From NCBI GenBank assembly GCA_030041455.1, contig JASHNV010000078.1:1-42164 (forward strand): a DNA stretch of 42,164 bases, read 5' to 3'. The notes beneath the pieces were generated by a model. That model was not told where the DNA came from. It worked only from the letters and a program-made list of their open reading frames with translations, and searched no databases. Shown here piece by piece: positions 16,448 through 41,527 of the stretch. The translations under genes and the position numbers were made by a program. The stretch is from Spirochaetia bacterium. Lineage in GTDB: Bacteria; Spirochaetota; Spirochaetia; DAHUYW01. Numbering within the stretch: the first letter of the stretch is position 1; each line of letters starts with the position of its first letter.

Positions 16448-16473
16448 CCCTTTGCCCGGAGGGAGCGAACGTA

Positions 16474-17790
16474 ATGGCAATCTCCGATTACCTGGCGAGC
16501 GAGCGCGTAGTCTACCTGAGAGGCAAGACCAAAGCCGCCGCTTTCGCCGAGCTCGCCGAGCGGGTCTCGGGCGCCCGCCCCGGAGTAAGCAGGGAGCTCA
16601 TCCTCGAGGAGCTCTGGAAGCGCGAGAGCTTCCTTTCCACCCGCGTCTCGGAGAACATGGCGATCCCTCACGCGATCATCCGCTCGATGAGCGCCACGAT
16701 CATGGCGGTCGGGATCAGCCGCGAGGGGATCCCCTACGAGGACACCAAGGGCGATCTCCCCGTTCAGATCCTCGTCATGCTCGTCGGCGGGGAATCCGAC
16801 CACCTGTCGGCGCTGAGCGAGATCGCCTCGAGGCTGTCCAACGACTCGCTGCGCCGGGAGCTTCTCCTCGGCCGCTCGGGCGAGGAGCTCTTCGAGCTCC
16901 TCGCGGGGCCCGACCCCGAGCGGAGCGCCGCCGCCTCCGCCGCCGCGACCGAGGCGCTCTTCGCGCACGCTCTCGCGCTCTCAACCGAGGTCGGCGCCAC
17001 GCGCCTGGTCGTCCACGCCGACGCGACGAGCGACACCGAGCGGATCGGCCGCCTCTGCGCGGGGCGGGATGCTGTCATCGTCACGAGCGACCGGTCGCGC
17101 TTCTCCCCGCCCGCCTTTGAGTCGAAATCGGTGGTCGTCGTCCCCTTCCGCGGAACGAGCCGGGAGAGCACCATCGAGGTGAGTCTTCTGTTCCTGCTCT
17201 CGCAGGGCTTGGTCGGCAAGGGCGAGCGAATCGTGAGCGTCTGCGGCATTCCGAACTCCGGGGTCGTCGACTCGATTTTCGTCACCGACGTCGACAAGGA
17301 GTTCAAGCTCTACTTCGCCCTCGATTCGGAATCCGGGCGCGACGGCCTCGACCAGCAGGTGCTCGCGAGGGTTCTCCAGATCGCGAACGAGCTCGCCGTC
17401 GAGGGGCGCGAAGGGAGGCCGATCGGCACCCTCTTCGTCGTCGGCGATTACGAGAACGTCAAGAAGCTCTGCCAGCAGTTGATCGTCAACCCGTTTCAAG
17501 GATACCCTGAGGAGGAGCGGAACGTCCTCGATCCGAGCCTCGAGGAGACCATCAAGGAGTACTCGCGGATCGACGGCGCCTTCGTCGTCAGGGGCGACGG
17601 CGTCATCATGTCCGCCGGCACCTTCATCAAGGCGGAGGTACAGGGACCGCAGATTCACCCGGGGCTCGGCGCGCGCCACGCGACCGCGGCGAGCGTCACC
17701 GCGATAACGAGATCCGTGGCGGTCGCGATTTCCCAGTCGACCCAGAAGATCAGCCTCTTCCGTTTCGGAGAGCGCTTTCTTCATCTCTGA
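16474..17790 (+). CDS. PTS EIIA - PK_C-like - diadenylate cyclase (DisA_N) fusion
   Basis: A 438-residue three-domain protein. Residues 1-145 are a PTS EIIA of the fructose/nitrogen type, with the phosphorylatable histidine at H66 in SENMAIPHAI. Residues 160-290 (ALFAHALALSTEVGATRLVVHADATSD ... GIPNSGVVDSIFVTDVDKEF) resemble the pyruvate-kinase C-terminal-like domain that precedes the cyclase in CdaZ-type enzymes. Residues 295-438 are a DAC domain, with the catalytic DGA at 367-369 (RIDGAFVV) and, in place of the usual RHR, GARHATAAS at 401-405. The predicted reaction is two ATP to c-di-AMP in the cytoplasm. The EIIA domain suggests control by phosphotransferase phosphorylation. It is followed after 20 bp by rpiB. 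The third RHR residue is alanine here, so activity needs testing. Confidence 0.88.
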   Translation: MAISDYLASERVVYLRGKTKAAAFAELAERVSGARPGVSRELILEELWKRESFLSTRVSENMAIPHAIIRSMSATIMAVGISREGIPYEDTKGDLPVQILVMLVGGESDHLSALSEIASRLSNDSLRRELLLGRSGEELFELLAGPDPERSAAASAAATEALFAHALALSTEVGATRLVVHADATSDTERIGRLCAGRDAVIVTSDRSRFSPPAFESKSVVVVPFRGTSRESTIEVSLLFLLSQGLVGKGERIVSVCGIPNSGVVDSIFVTDVDKEFKLYFALDSESGRDGLDQQVLARVLQIANELAVEGREGRPIGTLFVVGDYENVKKLCQQLIVNPFQGYPEEERNVLDPSLEETIKEYSRIDGAFVVRGDGVIMSAGTFIKAEVQGPQIHPGLGARHATAASVTAITRSVAVAISQSTQKISLFRFGERFLHL

Positions 17791-17810: not shown

Positions 17811-18254
17811 ATGAAGGAAAAGATCGCCATAGCGTCCGATCACGCCGGCTTCCGGTACAAGGAGATTCTCAAGGCGTTCCTCGCCGAGAAGGGCTACGAG
17901 GTGAAGGACTTCGGGACGAACTCCGAGGAGCCGGTGGACTATCCCCTCTTCATCCGGCCCGCCGCCGAGGCGGTGGCGAGAGGCGAGTGCGACTGCGGGA
18001 TCGTCCTCGGAGGCTCGGGGAACGGCGAGGCGATCGTCTCGAACAAGGTGAAGGGAATCCGCTGCGCGGTCTGCTGGAGCGTCGACTCGGCGGTGTACGG
18101 CAAGCAGCACAACAACGCCAACGTGATCGCGATCGGGGAGCGCCTCGTGACCGAGGAAATGGCGAAGACGGTCGTCGAGAGCTGGCTTTCCGCCTCCTTC
18201 GCGGGAGGTCGGCACCAGCGGAGGATCGACGAGATCGCGGCCATGGAGCGATAG
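17811..18254 (+). CDS. rpiB: Ribose-5-phosphate isomerase B
   Basis: A 147-residue RpiB/LacAB-fold isomerase interconverting ribose 5-phosphate and ribulose 5-phosphate in the pentose phosphate pathway. The N-terminal IASDHAGFRYKE is the family signature. The active-site loop reads GIVLGGSGNGEAIVSNKV: the catalytic cysteine of E. coli RpiB is replaced by glycine/serine, and E73 is in the position used as base in the mycobacterial-type enzyme. The QHNNANVIAIGERL segment and the C-terminal RHQRRIDEIA also match that subtype. AAGGAGA precedes the ATG. It lies 20 bp behind the EIIA-cyclase fusion in one operon, linking sugar-phosphate metabolism to that signalling protein. Confidence 0.94.
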   Translation: MKEKIAIASDHAGFRYKEILKAFLAEKGYEVKDFGTNSEEPVDYPLFIRPAAEAVARGECDCGIVLGGSGNGEAIVSNKVKGIRCAVCWSVDSAVYGKQHNNANVIAIGERLVTEEMAKTVVESWLSASFAGGRHQRRIDEIAAMER

Positions 18255-18523: not shown

Positions 18524-19294
18524 ATGCCTAGGCTCTCGGAACGACCGCTCGGGATCCGCGAGACCGATCTCGCGGGCCCGGTCCACGATTTCCTCGTGGA
18601 AAACGGCTACACCGTCCGAAGCGAGGTCGGCGACTGCGACATCGCGGCGCTCAAGGACGGCGAGCTCATCGTGATCGAGCTCAAGCGGAGCCTTTCGATC
18701 GGCCTCCTCATCCAAGCCACCCAGCGCCAGCGCGTCGCCGACTCGGTCTACGTCGCGATCCCGATGCCGGCGCGGGGCACCTCAAACCGCGCCTGGCGCC
18801 AGGCCTGCCATCTCGTGAAGCGTCTCGAGCTCGGCCTCATCGTGGTGACGCTCGCAGGCGTCGCGCCCCGCATGGAGATCCTCTTCCACCCCCTCCCCCT
18901 CGAGCGGAAGCGCGACAACGGCCGACGGCGCGCCATTCTCAAGGAGATCGCGGGGCGAACCGGCGATTTCAATCGAGGCGGGAGCACCGGACAGCCTCTC
19001 GTCACCGCCTACCGCGAGATGTGCATTTTCGTCGCGGTCTGTCTCGACCGCCTCGGGCCCTCCTCCCCCAAGGCGGTCGAGGCGCTCGGGACAGGCCCGA
19101 AGACGCTCGCGATTCTCCGCCACAACCACTACGGCTGGTTCGAGCGCATCGACCGCGGCGTGTACGCCATTACCCGGGAGGGGCGCTCCGGGCTCCGCCG
19201 CTACGCTCGCATCGCCGCAGCGTGCAGCGGGAAGCTCTCTTCCGAGCCTCCCGACCGAACCGCCGCCTCCGCGGCTGAAGCGGACAAGGAGTGA
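18524..19294 (+). CDS. DUF2161 protein (PD-(D/E)XK nuclease fold)
   Basis: A 256-residue cytoplasmic protein of the DUF2161 family, annotated in databases as putative phosphodiesterases. The nuclease-fold core is DLAGPVHDFLVENGYTVRSEVGDCDIAALKDGELIVIELKR, with the D-(X)n-ExK pattern (CDIA then IELK) of PD-(D/E)XK enzymes. A long C-terminal winged-helix-like region follows (GPKTLAILRHNHYGWFERIDRGVYAITREG). TAGAGT ends six bases before the ATG and there is no ribosome site, suggesting leaderless expression. Its DNA or RNA target is unknown. Confidence 0.82.
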   Translation: MPRLSERPLGIRETDLAGPVHDFLVENGYTVRSEVGDCDIAALKDGELIVIELKRSLSIGLLIQATQRQRVADSVYVAIPMPARGTSNRAWRQACHLVKRLELGLIVVTLAGVAPRMEILFHPLPLERKRDNGRRRAILKEIAGRTGDFNRGGSTGQPLVTAYREMCIFVAVCLDRLGPSSPKAVEALGTGPKTLAILRHNHYGWFERIDRGVYAITREGRSGLRRYARIAAACSGKLSSEPPDRTAASAAEADKE

Positions 19295-19418: not shown

Positions 19419-20075
19419 CTATCTCGGGAAAAAAATGAGCGTTGCAAGGAGCGCGCCGAACACCGCGAGGACGAGGAAGAAGAGATCGCGGTACTTCAAG
19501 GCGCTCCGGTCGATGTGGTCGAGCTGGTCGCGCATGTCGTCGATGCTTCGCCGGGAACGGTCCAGGGTCCAGCCTTCGCCCGCCGAACGGCGGAGCCGTG
19601 CGCTCAGCTCTTCGCGGAATTTCTCCATCTCATGGATCGAGCGTAGCGCCTGCCACAGGCGCTTTCCCTCCTGCTCCTGGCGGCGCCTCACCTCCTCCAC
19701 GGTATTGAAGAGAACGTGGTAGTCGTCGACGATGCTCCGCATGGCGTGAAACGAGCGGATCAGCGCAACGCTGATCTTCACCGCGTTCGGGCTATGGAGG
19801 AAATAGGACATCGCGTGGATGCCCGCCTCGGTGAAGGCGTACGGCGGCCGCTTCGCGAGCTCCGCGCCGCCGTCCGGGATGCCGTCGGACTCCCCGGTGC
19901 TGAGTCGAAACAAGAACTCCTCGGGGAAGCGCTCGGCCATCCGCCGGGCCGCTCGGGAGAGCTCCGGCGCCGATACGCCGTAAAAGACCGCGAGATCCCG
20001 GTCGATCATGACGGATCTCCCGCGCATCCGATAGATCTTTCCTCCGATTGCTGCCCGACCCGGGTCGTCGTCCAT
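19419..20075 (-). CDS. ORF6N-domain protein with coiled coil and C-terminal membrane anchor
   Basis: A 218-residue protein. Residues 10-100 are an ORF6N domain (KIYRMRGRSVMIDRDLAVFYGVSAPELSRAARR ... FLFRLSTGE ... YAFTEAGIHAMSYFLHS), a DNA-binding domain of phage antirepressors and bacterial regulators. It is followed by a long helical region (VEEVRRRQEQEGKRLWQALRSIHEMEKFREELSARLRRS, and RRSIDDMRDQLDHIDRS) that is probably coiled coil, then a hydrophobic helix DLFFLVLAVFGALLATLIFF at the very end. ORF6N proteins normally lack membrane segments, so this copy looks tail-anchored. A perfect TATAAT (20092-20087) lies 11 bases before ATG 20075; a TTG at 20087 is also in frame. No phage genes surround it. 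Confidence 0.82.
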   Translation of the reverse strand: MDDDPGRAAIGGKIYRMRGRSVMIDRDLAVFYGVSAPELSRAARRMAERFPEEFLFRLSTGESDGIPDGGAELAKRPPYAFTEAGIHAMSYFLHSPNAVKISVALIRSFHAMRSIVDDYHVLFNTVEEVRRRQEQEGKRLWQALRSIHEMEKFREELSARLRRSAGEGWTLDRSRRSIDDMRDQLDHIDRSALKYRDLFFLVLAVFGALLATLIFFPR

Positions 20076-20169
20076 GACGTGCCTCAATTATACCACGCCG
20101 ACGACCGTCTCGGCGAAGCTCGGGACCGGTAACGCTTGAAACTTTCAATTTCCCGCCGAAAATGGTAGG

Positions 20170-38137: not shown

Positions 38138-39942
38138 CAGATGAGGTTCTCCATGATGAAGTTCCGCCGCTCGGGGGTGTTCTTGCCCATGTAGAACTCG
38201 AGAGTGCCCTGAATGCTCTTCAGCGACTTCACGTTGACGCTGATGAGCCTCATGTCCTCGCCGATGAACTGGCCGAACTCGCTCGGCGAGATCTCCCCGA
38301 GGCCCTTGAATCGGGTGATCTCGGCGCCCGCGAGATCCGCCGCCGCGGCGTCGCGCTCCGCGAGGCTGTAGCAGTAGCGGGTCTCCTTCTTGTTGCGCAC
38401 GCGGAAGAGCGGCGTCTCGAGGATGTAGATCCTGCCCGCCACGACGAGCTCCTCGAAATAGTTCAAGAAGAACGTGAGGAGCAGGTTCCGAATATGGAAC
38501 CCGTCGTAGTCGGCGTCGGTCGCGATGACGATTCGCGCGTAGCGCAGGCCTTCCATGTCGTTCTCGATGCCGAGGGCGATCATGATATTGTAGAGCTCCT
38601 CGTTCTTGTAGAGGTCGGCGCGACGCCGGCTGAAGACGTTCTGGGGCTTCCCGCGCAGCGAGAACAGCGCCTGGGTGTAGACGTCCCGGCAGGAGACCAT
38701 GGAACCGGTCGCCGACTGCCCCTCGGTGATGAAGATCGTGGAGTGCGAGCCCTTCTCGCCGTCGTCGCCGAGGTGGAACTTGCAGTCCTTCAAATTGGGA
38801 ATCTTGAGGGCGACCTTCTTCGCCGCCTCGCGCGCCTCCTTGCGGACGGAGTTAAGCTCGGTGCGCAGCCGCTCGTTCGAAGCGATCTTCTCCTCGATTT
38901 TCTTCGCGACGGCGGGGTTTTTATGGAGAAAATCGACGACTCCGGACCGCGTCTCCGCGATGATCCAGCCCCTGATCTCGGTGTTGCCGAGCTTGTTCTT
39001 CGTCTGGCTCTCGAATACCGGGTCCTTCAATTTGATCGAGATCGCCCCCGTGATGCCCTCGCGGACATCGAGCCCGGAGTAGTTCTTCTGGAAGAACTCG
39101 TTCACCGCTTTGAGGATTCCCTCGCGGAAGGCGCTCTGATGGGTGCCGCCGTCGCTCGTGAACTGGCCGTTCACGAAAGAGAAGTAGGTCTCTCCGAAGT
39201 TGACAGTATGGGTGAACGCGAACTCGATCTGCTTGCCTCCGTAATGGCAGATCTCATAGAGCGCTCCGTCGCCGACTTCGTCGTACAGTAAATCGTACAA
39301 GCCTTTGGAGGATTTGTACTTCTGTCCGCCGAAGACGAGCGTGAGCCCGCTGTTCAGGTAGGCGTAGTTCCAGAGCCGCTGCTCGATAAACTCGACGTTG
39401 AAGGCGTAGTCGCCGAAAATCCCCTCGTCGGGAAGGAACTCGACGAAGGTGCCGTTCGACTGCCCGCTCGCGTTGCCCTGTTTCTGGCTCTTGAGGGCTC
39501 CGCGCTCGAAAACCGCGTCGAAGTACCTCCCGTCCCGGTAGGAGATGACCCGAAAGTGGGACGACAGGGCGTTCACCGCCTTGGTACCCACGCCGTTCAG
39601 GCCGACGCTGAACTGAAAGACCTCGTCGTTGAACTTGGCGCCCGTGTTGATGACCGAAACCGCGTCGATGACCTTGCTCAAGGGGATGCCCCGGCCGTAA
39701 TCGCGAACCTTGACGAGCTTGTCCTTGATCTCGATCTCGATCTTGTGGCCGTACCCCATGATGAACTCGTCGACCGCGTTGTCGATGACCTCCTTCAGGA
39801 GCACGTAGATTCCGTCGTTCAGGTTGGAGCCGTCGCCGAGCCGTCCGATGTACATGCCGGTCCTCAGCCGGATGTGCTCGAGCGAGCTTATCGTGGTTAT
39901 CTTGCTGTCGTCGTAGGCCGAACTCTTCTTCTCGCCGCTCAT
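38137..39942 (-). CDS. parE: DNA topoisomerase IV subunit B (ParE)
   Basis: A 601-residue ATPase subunit of type IIA topoisomerase. The GHKL ATP site includes E51 and N55 (LLKEVIDNAVDEF) and the glycine loop LNGVGTKAVNAL. The transducer segment GGTHQSAFREGILKAVNEFF is intact. The TOPRIM domain has catalytic E407 in ITEGQSATGS and the DxD motif DADYD (476-480, usually DADVD). LFSLRGKPQNVF and TPLFRVRNKKETRYCYS match the Bacteroidetes/spirochaete form rather than proteobacterial GyrB. It overlaps the preceding transferase gene (ATGA) and the following parC (TGATG), giving tight coupling. ATP turnover drives strand passage with ParC. Confidence 0.94.
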   Translation of the reverse strand: MSGEKKSSAYDDSKITTISSLEHIRLRTGMYIGRLGDGSNLNDGIYVLLKEVIDNAVDEFIMGYGHKIEIEIKDKLVKVRDYGRGIPLSKVIDAVSVINTGAKFNDEVFQFSVGLNGVGTKAVNALSSHFRVISYRDGRYFDAVFERGALKSQKQGNASGQSNGTFVEFLPDEGIFGDYAFNVEFIEQRLWNYAYLNSGLTLVFGGQKYKSSKGLYDLLYDEVGDGALYEICHYGGKQIEFAFTHTVNFGETYFSFVNGQFTSDGGTHQSAFREGILKAVNEFFQKNYSGLDVREGITGAISIKLKDPVFESQTKNKLGNTEIRGWIIAETRSGVVDFLHKNPAVAKKIEEKIASNERLRTELNSVRKEAREAAKKVALKIPNLKDCKFHLGDDGEKGSHSTIFITEGQSATGSMVSCRDVYTQALFSLRGKPQNVFSRRRADLYKNEELYNIMIALGIENDMEGLRYARIVIATDADYDGFHIRNLLLTFFLNYFEELVVAGRIYILETPLFRVRNKKETRYCYSLAERDAAAADLAGAEITRFKGLGEISPSEFGQFIGEDMRLISVNVKSLKSIQGTLEFYMGKNTPERRNFIMENLI

Positions 39943-40709
39943 GGGTCCTCGCCTCGGAGCCTCGTCTTGGGGAAAAACTCAATTTTCTCAATACTATGGC
40001 TCAAAACACCCTTCGTATCAAGGTAATCCACCCACCGCCCCTCCTCCAGGAGGATCTGGCTAGGGTGGTAGCGCCCCTTGTAGCTCATGTGACGATTCTC
40101 GGCGATGTAAAAGCCAAGGTAAAGAAACGAGGCCTTTCGCTCGAGGCCGATCTCCACCTCCTTGTAAATCGCGAGGCTCCCTAGGCTTTCTCGAGCATAA
40201 CTATCGTCGTAGTAACAATATACCGCCGACAGTGCGTGTTTGGTGACGTCGACGTGGGAAACGGCGACGAGTCGCTCCCCGTCGAGAATCGAGAGCTGGT
40301 AGGCGAAGGGAAAAGGATGGAAAAAGCTCGCGACGAAGTCGCCGTAGCTTTCCACCGAGGCGCTCGCGAAACGCCGCTTGTGGCTCAGATAGAGCTGGTA
40401 GGCCTCCTTCGTCGGCCGCGGACGATGGAGCCGCGCGGTGAACCTCGATCCTCGAGCGAGAATCCGCCTCCCGCTCCGCGTGGGGACGTAGCGATCGAGG
40501 GGGATCCGAATCGGCACGCATCGATGGCAGAGGCGGCAGACCGGGCGATAAAAGTAGGAGCCGAAGTGGCGGTATCCGGCCGCGAGAAGACCCTCGAAGT
40601 CGCTTTCCGAGAGCGAGCTCGCCGCGAAATGCTCCATCGTGGCGGTTTGGCGGTCGAGATAGGGGCAGGCCTCCGAGGCTTCGGGCATCAGATAGCCGGT
40701 TATGCTCAT
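39939..40709 (-). CDS. bpt: Aminoacyl-tRNA-protein transferase (Bpt/ATE1-type)
   Basis: A 256-residue leucyl/arginyl-tRNA protein transferase of the N-degron pathway, which adds an amino acid to proteins with an acidic N-terminus to target them for ClpS/ClpAP or similar degradation. The N-terminal C-x-Y motif is ACPYLDRQTATMEHF. The zinc-binding-like CRLCHRCVPIRI follows RHFGSYFYRPVC, and the C-terminal domain has YCYYDDSYARESLGSLAIYKEVEIG and YLGFYIAENRHMSYKGRYHPSQILLEE. TATACT lies seven bases before ATG 40709, suggesting a leaderless start at the head of the four-gene operon. Its overlap with parE is unusual. Confidence 0.9.
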   Translation of the reverse strand: MSITGYLMPEASEACPYLDRQTATMEHFAASSLSESDFEGLLAAGYRHFGSYFYRPVCRLCHRCVPIRIPLDRYVPTRSGRRILARGSRFTARLHRPRPTKEAYQLYLSHKRRFASASVESYGDFVASFFHPFPFAYQLSILDGERLVAVSHVDVTKHALSAVYCYYDDSYARESLGSLAIYKEVEIGLERKASFLYLGFYIAENRHMSYKGRYHPSQILLEEGRWVDYLDTKGVLSHSIEKIEFFPKTRLRGEDP

Positions 40710-40716
40710 GCCCTCT

Positions 40717-40722
40717 AGTATA
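40717..40722 (-). promoter_or_regulatory. -10 box of the bpt-parE-parC operon
   Basis: TATACT on the minus strand (40722-40717), seven bases before ATG 40709. I see no good -35 at 16-18 bp upstream. Confidence 0.5.
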
Positions 40723-40774
40723 GCGCGCGCGGCGCCCCGCGTTCGCATGCGAAGCAGCCGCGGAGGTCTCCGTT

Positions 40775-41527
40775 CTACGGCCCGAACGTCACCGAGAAAT
40801 CGAGAGGCCGATCGAGCACGAGCGCGGCAAGGAGGGGCACGGAAAACACGACCGTATTCCCCTGCTGGACTCCTCCGACGTGCGAGACGATTCGACCCCT
40901 CACGGTGAGTGCAATCCGGACCTTGGACGCTTTGACGACGTCGGCGACGGACGCTCCCTGCGCGTAGTCCCCGAAAGCGTAACTGAGGAGATCGAGGTAG
41001 TCCTTCTCGGTGTCGTGGGTCGCTTCCTGCGGGCTCAACGTCATGAGAATCTGGTTGCCCCGAAACGGAGGCAGCTCGGCGATGCGCGCGAAGTTGTCCC
41101 GCGAGAGGTAGAACCTGAGCGTGCTCACGCCGCCCGCGGAAACGAAGGTGACCGGCGGGGGAACCCCTCCCGCGAGCCTGCTCGGGAAGAATTGGGTGAT
41201 GTCGGCGAACTCGAGGCGGATGTTCAGCCGGTCCGGCGAGGGGCTTTCGACCGAGACACCCGTGACTCCGCCGAACTGCCTGAAGGTATCGGCCATGCCG
41301 CGGGTGTCGAAGATTGCGCCGGATCCGCCCACGCTCTGCTCGAGGTCCTGGAGATAGGCGACGAACATCGGCTTCAGGGACACCTGAACGTCGGCGGAGC
41401 CCGATCCTTCGGGATCCAGAACAAGCTGCTGGCTGAGCGAGCACGAGCAGAGGAGCGCTCCCCCCGCCGCGATCGCGAGCACGGTCAATTTTGGGAGGAT
41501 ACGGCGCCCGGCAACCACCGGTCTCAT
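40775..41527 (-). CDS. Putative lipoprotein of unknown function
   Basis: A 250-residue exported protein. After basic residues (RRILPK) comes LTVLAIAAGGALLCSCSLSQQ, a signal peptide with LCSC as lipobox, so the mature protein should be lipidated at cysteine. The remainder is beta-rich (GSADVQVSLKPMFVAYLQDL, DRLNIRLEFADITQFF, VSTLRFYLSRDNF) and ends VLDRPLDFSVTFGP. GSGSADVQVSLKP followed by an alternating pattern resembles other bacterial lipoproteins of unknown function. ATG 41527 lies seven bases after TAGAGT. It is separated from the bpt operon by 65 bp. Role unknown; probably membrane-attached in the periplasm. Confidence 0.8.
   Translation of the reverse strand: MRPVVAGRRILPKLTVLAIAAGGALLCSCSLSQQLVLDPEGSGSADVQVSLKPMFVAYLQDLEQSVGGSGAIFDTRGMADTFRQFGGVTGVSVESPSPDRLNIRLEFADITQFFPSRLAGGVPPPVTFVSAGGVSTLRFYLSRDNFARIAELPPFRGNQILMTLSPQEATHDTEKDYLDLLSYAFGDYAQGASVADVVKASKVRIALTVRGRIVSHVGGVQQGNTVVFSVPLLAALVLDRPLDFSVTFGP

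Follow-up and report, generated by a model that had tools for sequence, protein, structure and literature searches.

A spirochaete gene joins a phosphotransferase EIIA domain to a predicted DacZ/CdaZ-type diadenylate cyclase

The window, meaning the whole stretch of 42,164 nucleotides (nts) of Spirochaetia DNA that we analyzed, contains a complete reading frame of 438 amino acids (aa) whose product carries an EIIA domain of the phosphotransferase system (PTS) at its N terminus, a DacZ_P domain in the middle, and a diadenylate cyclase (DAC) domain at its C terminus. The features of the locus are as follows.

16458..16462, + strand: GGAGG, resembling a ribosome-binding site, with the ATG 11 nt downstream (sequence reading)
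16474..17790, + strand: EIIA-DacZ_P-DAC fusion gene, 438 aa, ATG start (reading frame, Pfam, relatives)
16516..16902, + strand: PTS_EIIA_2 domain, residues 15-143 (Pfam; PtsN structures 3urr and 1a6j)
16669..16671, + strand: predicted phospho-acceptor His66, motif AIPHA, aligned with the IPH histidine of PtsN (13/13 fusions)
16801..16803, + strand: His110, at the position of the second conserved histidine in PtsN-type EIIA (12/13 fusions)
16951..17304, + strand: DacZ_P sensor-like domain, residues 160-277 (Pfam PF21755)
17395..17769, + strand: DAC catalytic domain, residues 308-432 (Pfam PF02457; NCBIfam DacZ profile)
17572..17580, + strand: DGA motif, residues 367-369, invariant in the fusions, DacZ-only proteins, archaeal DacZ, and CdaA
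17668..17682, + strand: GARHA, residues 399-403, aligned with GTRHR; variation at residue 403 but none at R401 or H402 (alignment)
17731..17739, + strand: S420-Q421-S422, counterpart of SEE in CdaA; the other fusions read SES or SET, and archaeal DacZ reads SES (alignment)
17811..18254, + strand: rpiB (ribose-5-phosphate isomerase B), 20 bp downstream of the fusion gene (Pfam LacAB_rpiB, E value 2.4e-55)

A reading made earlier from the sequence alone had proposed that EIIA and DAC domains lie in one protein, and both exceeded their Pfam cut-offs. PTS_EIIA_2 matched with an E value of 4.5e-18 (66.1 bits against a cut-off of 27) and DAC with an E value of 8e-19 (67.8 bits against a cut-off of 27), the latter over residues 308-432, inside the region (295-438) where that reading had placed it. 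The same reading had likened the protein to the CdaZ class as a PK_C domain paired with a DAC. The DacZ/CdaZ likeness held, but the PK_C assignment was not supported: no PK_C profile matched anywhere in the window protein, and residues 160-277 matched DacZ_P (E value 2.3e-10, 40.7 bits against a cut-off of 27.4). A PK_C-like fold for the N terminus of the DacZ family is given, from homology modelling, in PMC6741144. Among the more distant fusions, even DacZ_P was missed by Pfam.

The top NCBIfam match to the window protein was the DacZ model (E value 1.5e-31). Because the protein scored 109.8 bits against the 430-bit cut-off of the haloarchaeal DacZ equivalog NF041371, it is not a haloarchaeal DacZ ortholog in NCBI's sense and belongs only to the wider DacZ/CdaZ kind. 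The EIIA part fell below the cut-offs of both the PtsN equivalog TIGR01419 (43.9 bits against 138.7) and FruA. By sequence, the relatives with solved structures were PtsN for the N terminus and CdaA for the C terminus; a structure predicted from the single sequence had a mean pLDDT of 44.5, too poor for the fold to be read.

A first search of 247 genomes of the phylum added three complete fusions to that of the window and also gave three proteins of the DacZ-only kind. With a profile built from four fusions and run over 393 phylum genomes, the fusion was found in 13 genomes from 10 family-level groups (G000, the window's own genome, and G130, G021, G008, G330, G378, G371, G377, G293, G335, G350, G375, and G253); the DacZ-only relatives within the phylum are in G003, G107, and G042. 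No fusion was seen in two heavily sampled families (f3 and f5). This survey of related genomes bore out the architecture, and because 12 other genomes repeat the EIIA/DAC order along with the catalytic residues, the fusion lies far beyond chance. It is genuine and not an accident of assembly.

The fusions are only ~30% identical to one another, and the closest pair (G371 and G377) has a dN/dS of about 0.07-0.09 in every domain. The fusion of G253 (L071:7185-9017) is 610 aa long, with a long low-complexity insert separating EIIA from DAC. When genome contigs were scanned with the window protein as the single query, only stand-alone EIIA domains were found. A profile scan of viral contigs gave no fusion, nor did plasmids, from which two archaeal dacZ genes were obtained and used to check motifs. 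In a tree with 22 stand-alone EIIA domains, those of the fusions fell together on one side of a branch with support of 93/89, which is suggestive of a separate branch. The DAC domains grouped with archaeal DacZ and apart from CdaA with support of 100/100, in a tree with only two archaeal and three CdaA rows and with poorly supported branching inside the DacZ group.

The phosphohistidine of the EIIA domain, H66 in AIPHAI, had been described as intact, and the alignment confirmed it: E51, A63, P65, and H66 are invariant in all 13 fusions, and H110 is kept in 12 of them. The window's own genome encodes two EI and three HPr proteins, so phosphorylation of H66 is plausible. EI was present in all 13 fusion genomes and also in the three DacZ-only genomes, so its presence does not discriminate. 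A search for PTS_EIIC permeases of the PF02378 family gave no match in the window's own genome (95% complete) or in G330, G350, G021, and G008; the EIIA domain therefore need not serve transport, which points to a regulatory role. Also present in the own genome are two near-identical stand-alone EIIA stretches on contigs C102 and C4 (L006:21-419 and L007:1501-1923), perhaps an unresolved repeat; one of them adjoins an IS110-like transposase gene (L007:220-1443, - strand).

The DGA motif of the DAC domain is at residues 367-369, as first read. DGA, R401, H402, and S420 are invariant among the fusions, and the window protein accordingly retains D367, R401, H402, and S420. The sequence-only reading had also pointed out that the usual RHR is RHA at residues 401-403 and had taken this to mean that the enzyme may be altered or regulatory. 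The residues are as read, but the interpretation failed. At position 403 the 13 fusions have A, T, or Q, the DacZ-only proteins have Y or R, and two haloarchaeal sequences annotated as DacZ have H. CdaA of Listeria monocytogenes contacts ATP through the side chains of Leu31, Asp71, Thr102, Arg103, His104, Ser122, and Glu124 and through the main chain of Leu88, Gly101, and Glu123; Arg105, the final R of RHR, is absent from this list (PMC7288161). Because residue 403 is variable and lies outside these contacts, we rejected RHA as the sign of a broken enzyme. The inactivating mutation known for a DAC replaced the whole of RHR with AAA (PMC3328451); because it changed all three residues, it says nothing about the third alone.

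At positions where CdaA touches ATP or metal, the window protein has A400 in place of Thr, Q421 in place of Glu, and S422 in place of the metal-ligand Glu. Serine occupies this last position in archaeal DacZ as well. At position 421, where CdaA contacts ATP by its main chain, most relatives have Glu and the DacZ-only protein of G003 also has Gln. DacZ of Haloferax volcanii is a proven cyclase that is active only with manganese (PMC6741144), and one might speculate that Ser at the metal-ligand position explains this need.

Every fusion genome but G008 has a second, higher-scoring DAC, which was of the CdaA type where checked. That of the window's own genome is a canonical CdaA, encoded between folP-like and YbbR-like genes (neighboring reading frames read by eye). 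The fusion was the sole DAC found in G008 (L030), and the DacZ-only protein was the sole DAC found in G003 (L031), which argues for an active enzyme; c-di-AMP in these two genomes may rest on the DacZ-type protein alone. The own genome also encodes a 329-aa DHH-DHHA1 protein, which could be a phosphodiesterase. No TrkA_C (RCK_C) receptor domain was found in it, whereas the domain occurs in 13 of 14 control genomes. Such an absence is unusual for a genome with two predicted diadenylate cyclases.

Next to the fusion gene, the gap of exactly 20 bp before rpiB was as first described, and the two genes are probably cotranscribed. The support for a carbon-metabolism link that had been drawn from this placement was lost, since the 12 other fusion loci all lack a nearby rpiB; we rejected rpiB as the marker of a carbon-metabolism operon because the adjacency is unique to the window locus. 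Comparing the neighboring genes of 16 loci gave nothing common across families, and sharing was limited to close pairs. An Rfam scan of the window found no c-di-AMP riboswitch and no other family, and scans for promoters and terminators gave nothing clearly above chance. Downstream of rpiB is a gene for a DUF2161 protein (18524-19294, + strand), a putative PD-(D/E)XK nuclease that also shows a weak likeness to AbiEi. Elsewhere in the window are an ORF6N-domain protein, from a family of phage-type regulators, which has a hydrophobic C terminus and stands alone amid chromosomal genes (19419-20087, - strand), and an arginine-tRNA-protein transferase (ATE_N/ATE_C) with ~250 extra in-frame N-terminal residues, adjoining genes for topoisomerase subunits (39939-41444, - strand).

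The DAC domain belongs to the same branch as DacZ/CdaZ (DacY) of euryarchaea and some bacteria, such as H. volcanii DacZ and Methanocaldococcus jannaschii CdaZ. They share the DacZ-type N-terminal domain, the DGA and GxRH motifs, and Ser replacing the second Glu of SEE. However, known members have only DacZ_N, DacZ_P, or a PK_C-like domain at the N terminus, whereas the window protein has a complete EIIA domain ahead. That domain resembles PtsN (EIIA-Ntr) and fructose-type EIIA in its PTS_EIIA_2 profile, IPH phosphohistidine, second His, and RE and ST motifs, but it is below the NCBIfam cut-offs for both and is followed by a predicted cyclase instead of being free or fused to EIIB/EIIC. The DacC class of Corrigan and Gruendling also has a spirochaete member, Alkalispirochaeta odontotermitis A0A0A0DNA5, according to PMC6741144. 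That paper puts DacC outside the DacZ/CdaZ branch, and the window DAC lies inside it; on this comparison by branch, the fusion is unlikely to be DacC. In the CdaA-GlmM system of Firmicutes, a protein inhibitor likewise couples DAC output to metabolism (PMC8573169, PMC6368335), but that regulator is a separate protein and not a fused, phosphorylatable domain.

We consider it fairly probable that the fusion is a c-di-AMP cyclase of the DacZ/CdaZ type that is tuned through PTS phosphorylation of its own EIIA domain. We infer cyclase activity, H66 phosphorylation, and gating from domain content, conservation, and partner genes. Gating by the PTS is the best reading because an EIIA domain with an intact phosphohistidine is fused to a DacZ/CdaZ-type protein in a genome with EI and HPr. 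The protein would be a soluble diadenylate cyclase with the N-terminal EIIA domain as its input module. A phosphoryl group from phosphoenolpyruvate (PEP) would pass through EI and HPr to H66, and the state of H66 would be relayed via DacZ_P and the arrangement of the DAC domains. Because DAC catalysis requires two domains to meet head-to-head (PMC8573169), phosphorylation could act through a changed assembly. The phosphorylation state would shift the conversion of two ATP to c-di-AMP up or down, with a sign that is not readable from sequence. The fusion would thus be an additional PEP- and nutrient-responsive source of c-di-AMP beside the housekeeping CdaA. We give about an even chance to the further idea that this one protein is the complete link, with the PEP/pyruvate-dependent state of HPr, acting on H66, switching a DacZ-type cyclase and so setting a level of c-di-AMP by nutrients, apart from CdaA.

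Three other explanations were weighed. The protein might be an active cyclase in which EIIA is a dimerization or docking module only and any phosphorylation is of no regulatory consequence. Given that DAC domains must pair, any oligomerizing domain would suffice, and there is no conserved partner gene; however, fusions only ~30% identical have kept H66, E51, and H110, which a mere scaffold would not need, and we regard this explanation as unlikely. It is quite unlikely that the output is reversed, with ATP or c-di-AMP on DAC/DacZ_P controlling EIIA as the effector through a phosphate relay or PtsN-like protein binding. Over the 13 fusions the catalytic residues are conserved as strongly as H66, the fusion of G008 has no other DAC found beside it, and a nucleotide cyclase usually follows its sensor, with the input domain on the N-terminal side. 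These points outweigh the full retention of the phosphorylation site, the protein binding through which PtsN-type EIIA proteins work in other bacteria, and the second DAC that already supplies c-di-AMP in most fusion genomes. A degenerate DAC, making the protein a c-di-AMP or ATP receptor instead of a synthase, would fit A400, Q421, and S422 and the low score of the window DAC among the fusions, but it is very unlikely with D367, R401, H402, and S420 intact, S422 common to archaeal DacZ, main-chain contact at the Q421 position of CdaA, and no ATP contact by the third residue of RHA.

The signals that set c-di-AMP levels are a long-standing gap. Most cyclases have no recognizable sensor of a known ligand, and the N-terminal domain of DacZ is merely a "probable sensor." The best-known roles of c-di-AMP are in the control of potassium and osmotic balance, and in other bacteria both this messenger and the EIIA-Ntr group act on potassium uptake. 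A common potassium or osmotic theme would be attractive; the own genome, having no TrkA_C found, gives it no support. We found no description of an EIIA-DAC protein in the searchable literature, whose coverage stops short of key subscription reviews; as far as that literature shows, the parts are known and the combination is undescribed. Here a predicted cyclase is fused to a domain with a well-understood input, HPr phosphorylation, which would offer a defined means of switching the enzyme in vitro. The architecture suggests that nutrient status may directly set the level of c-di-AMP, and the gating, if true, would connect carbon or nitrogen status to this second messenger.
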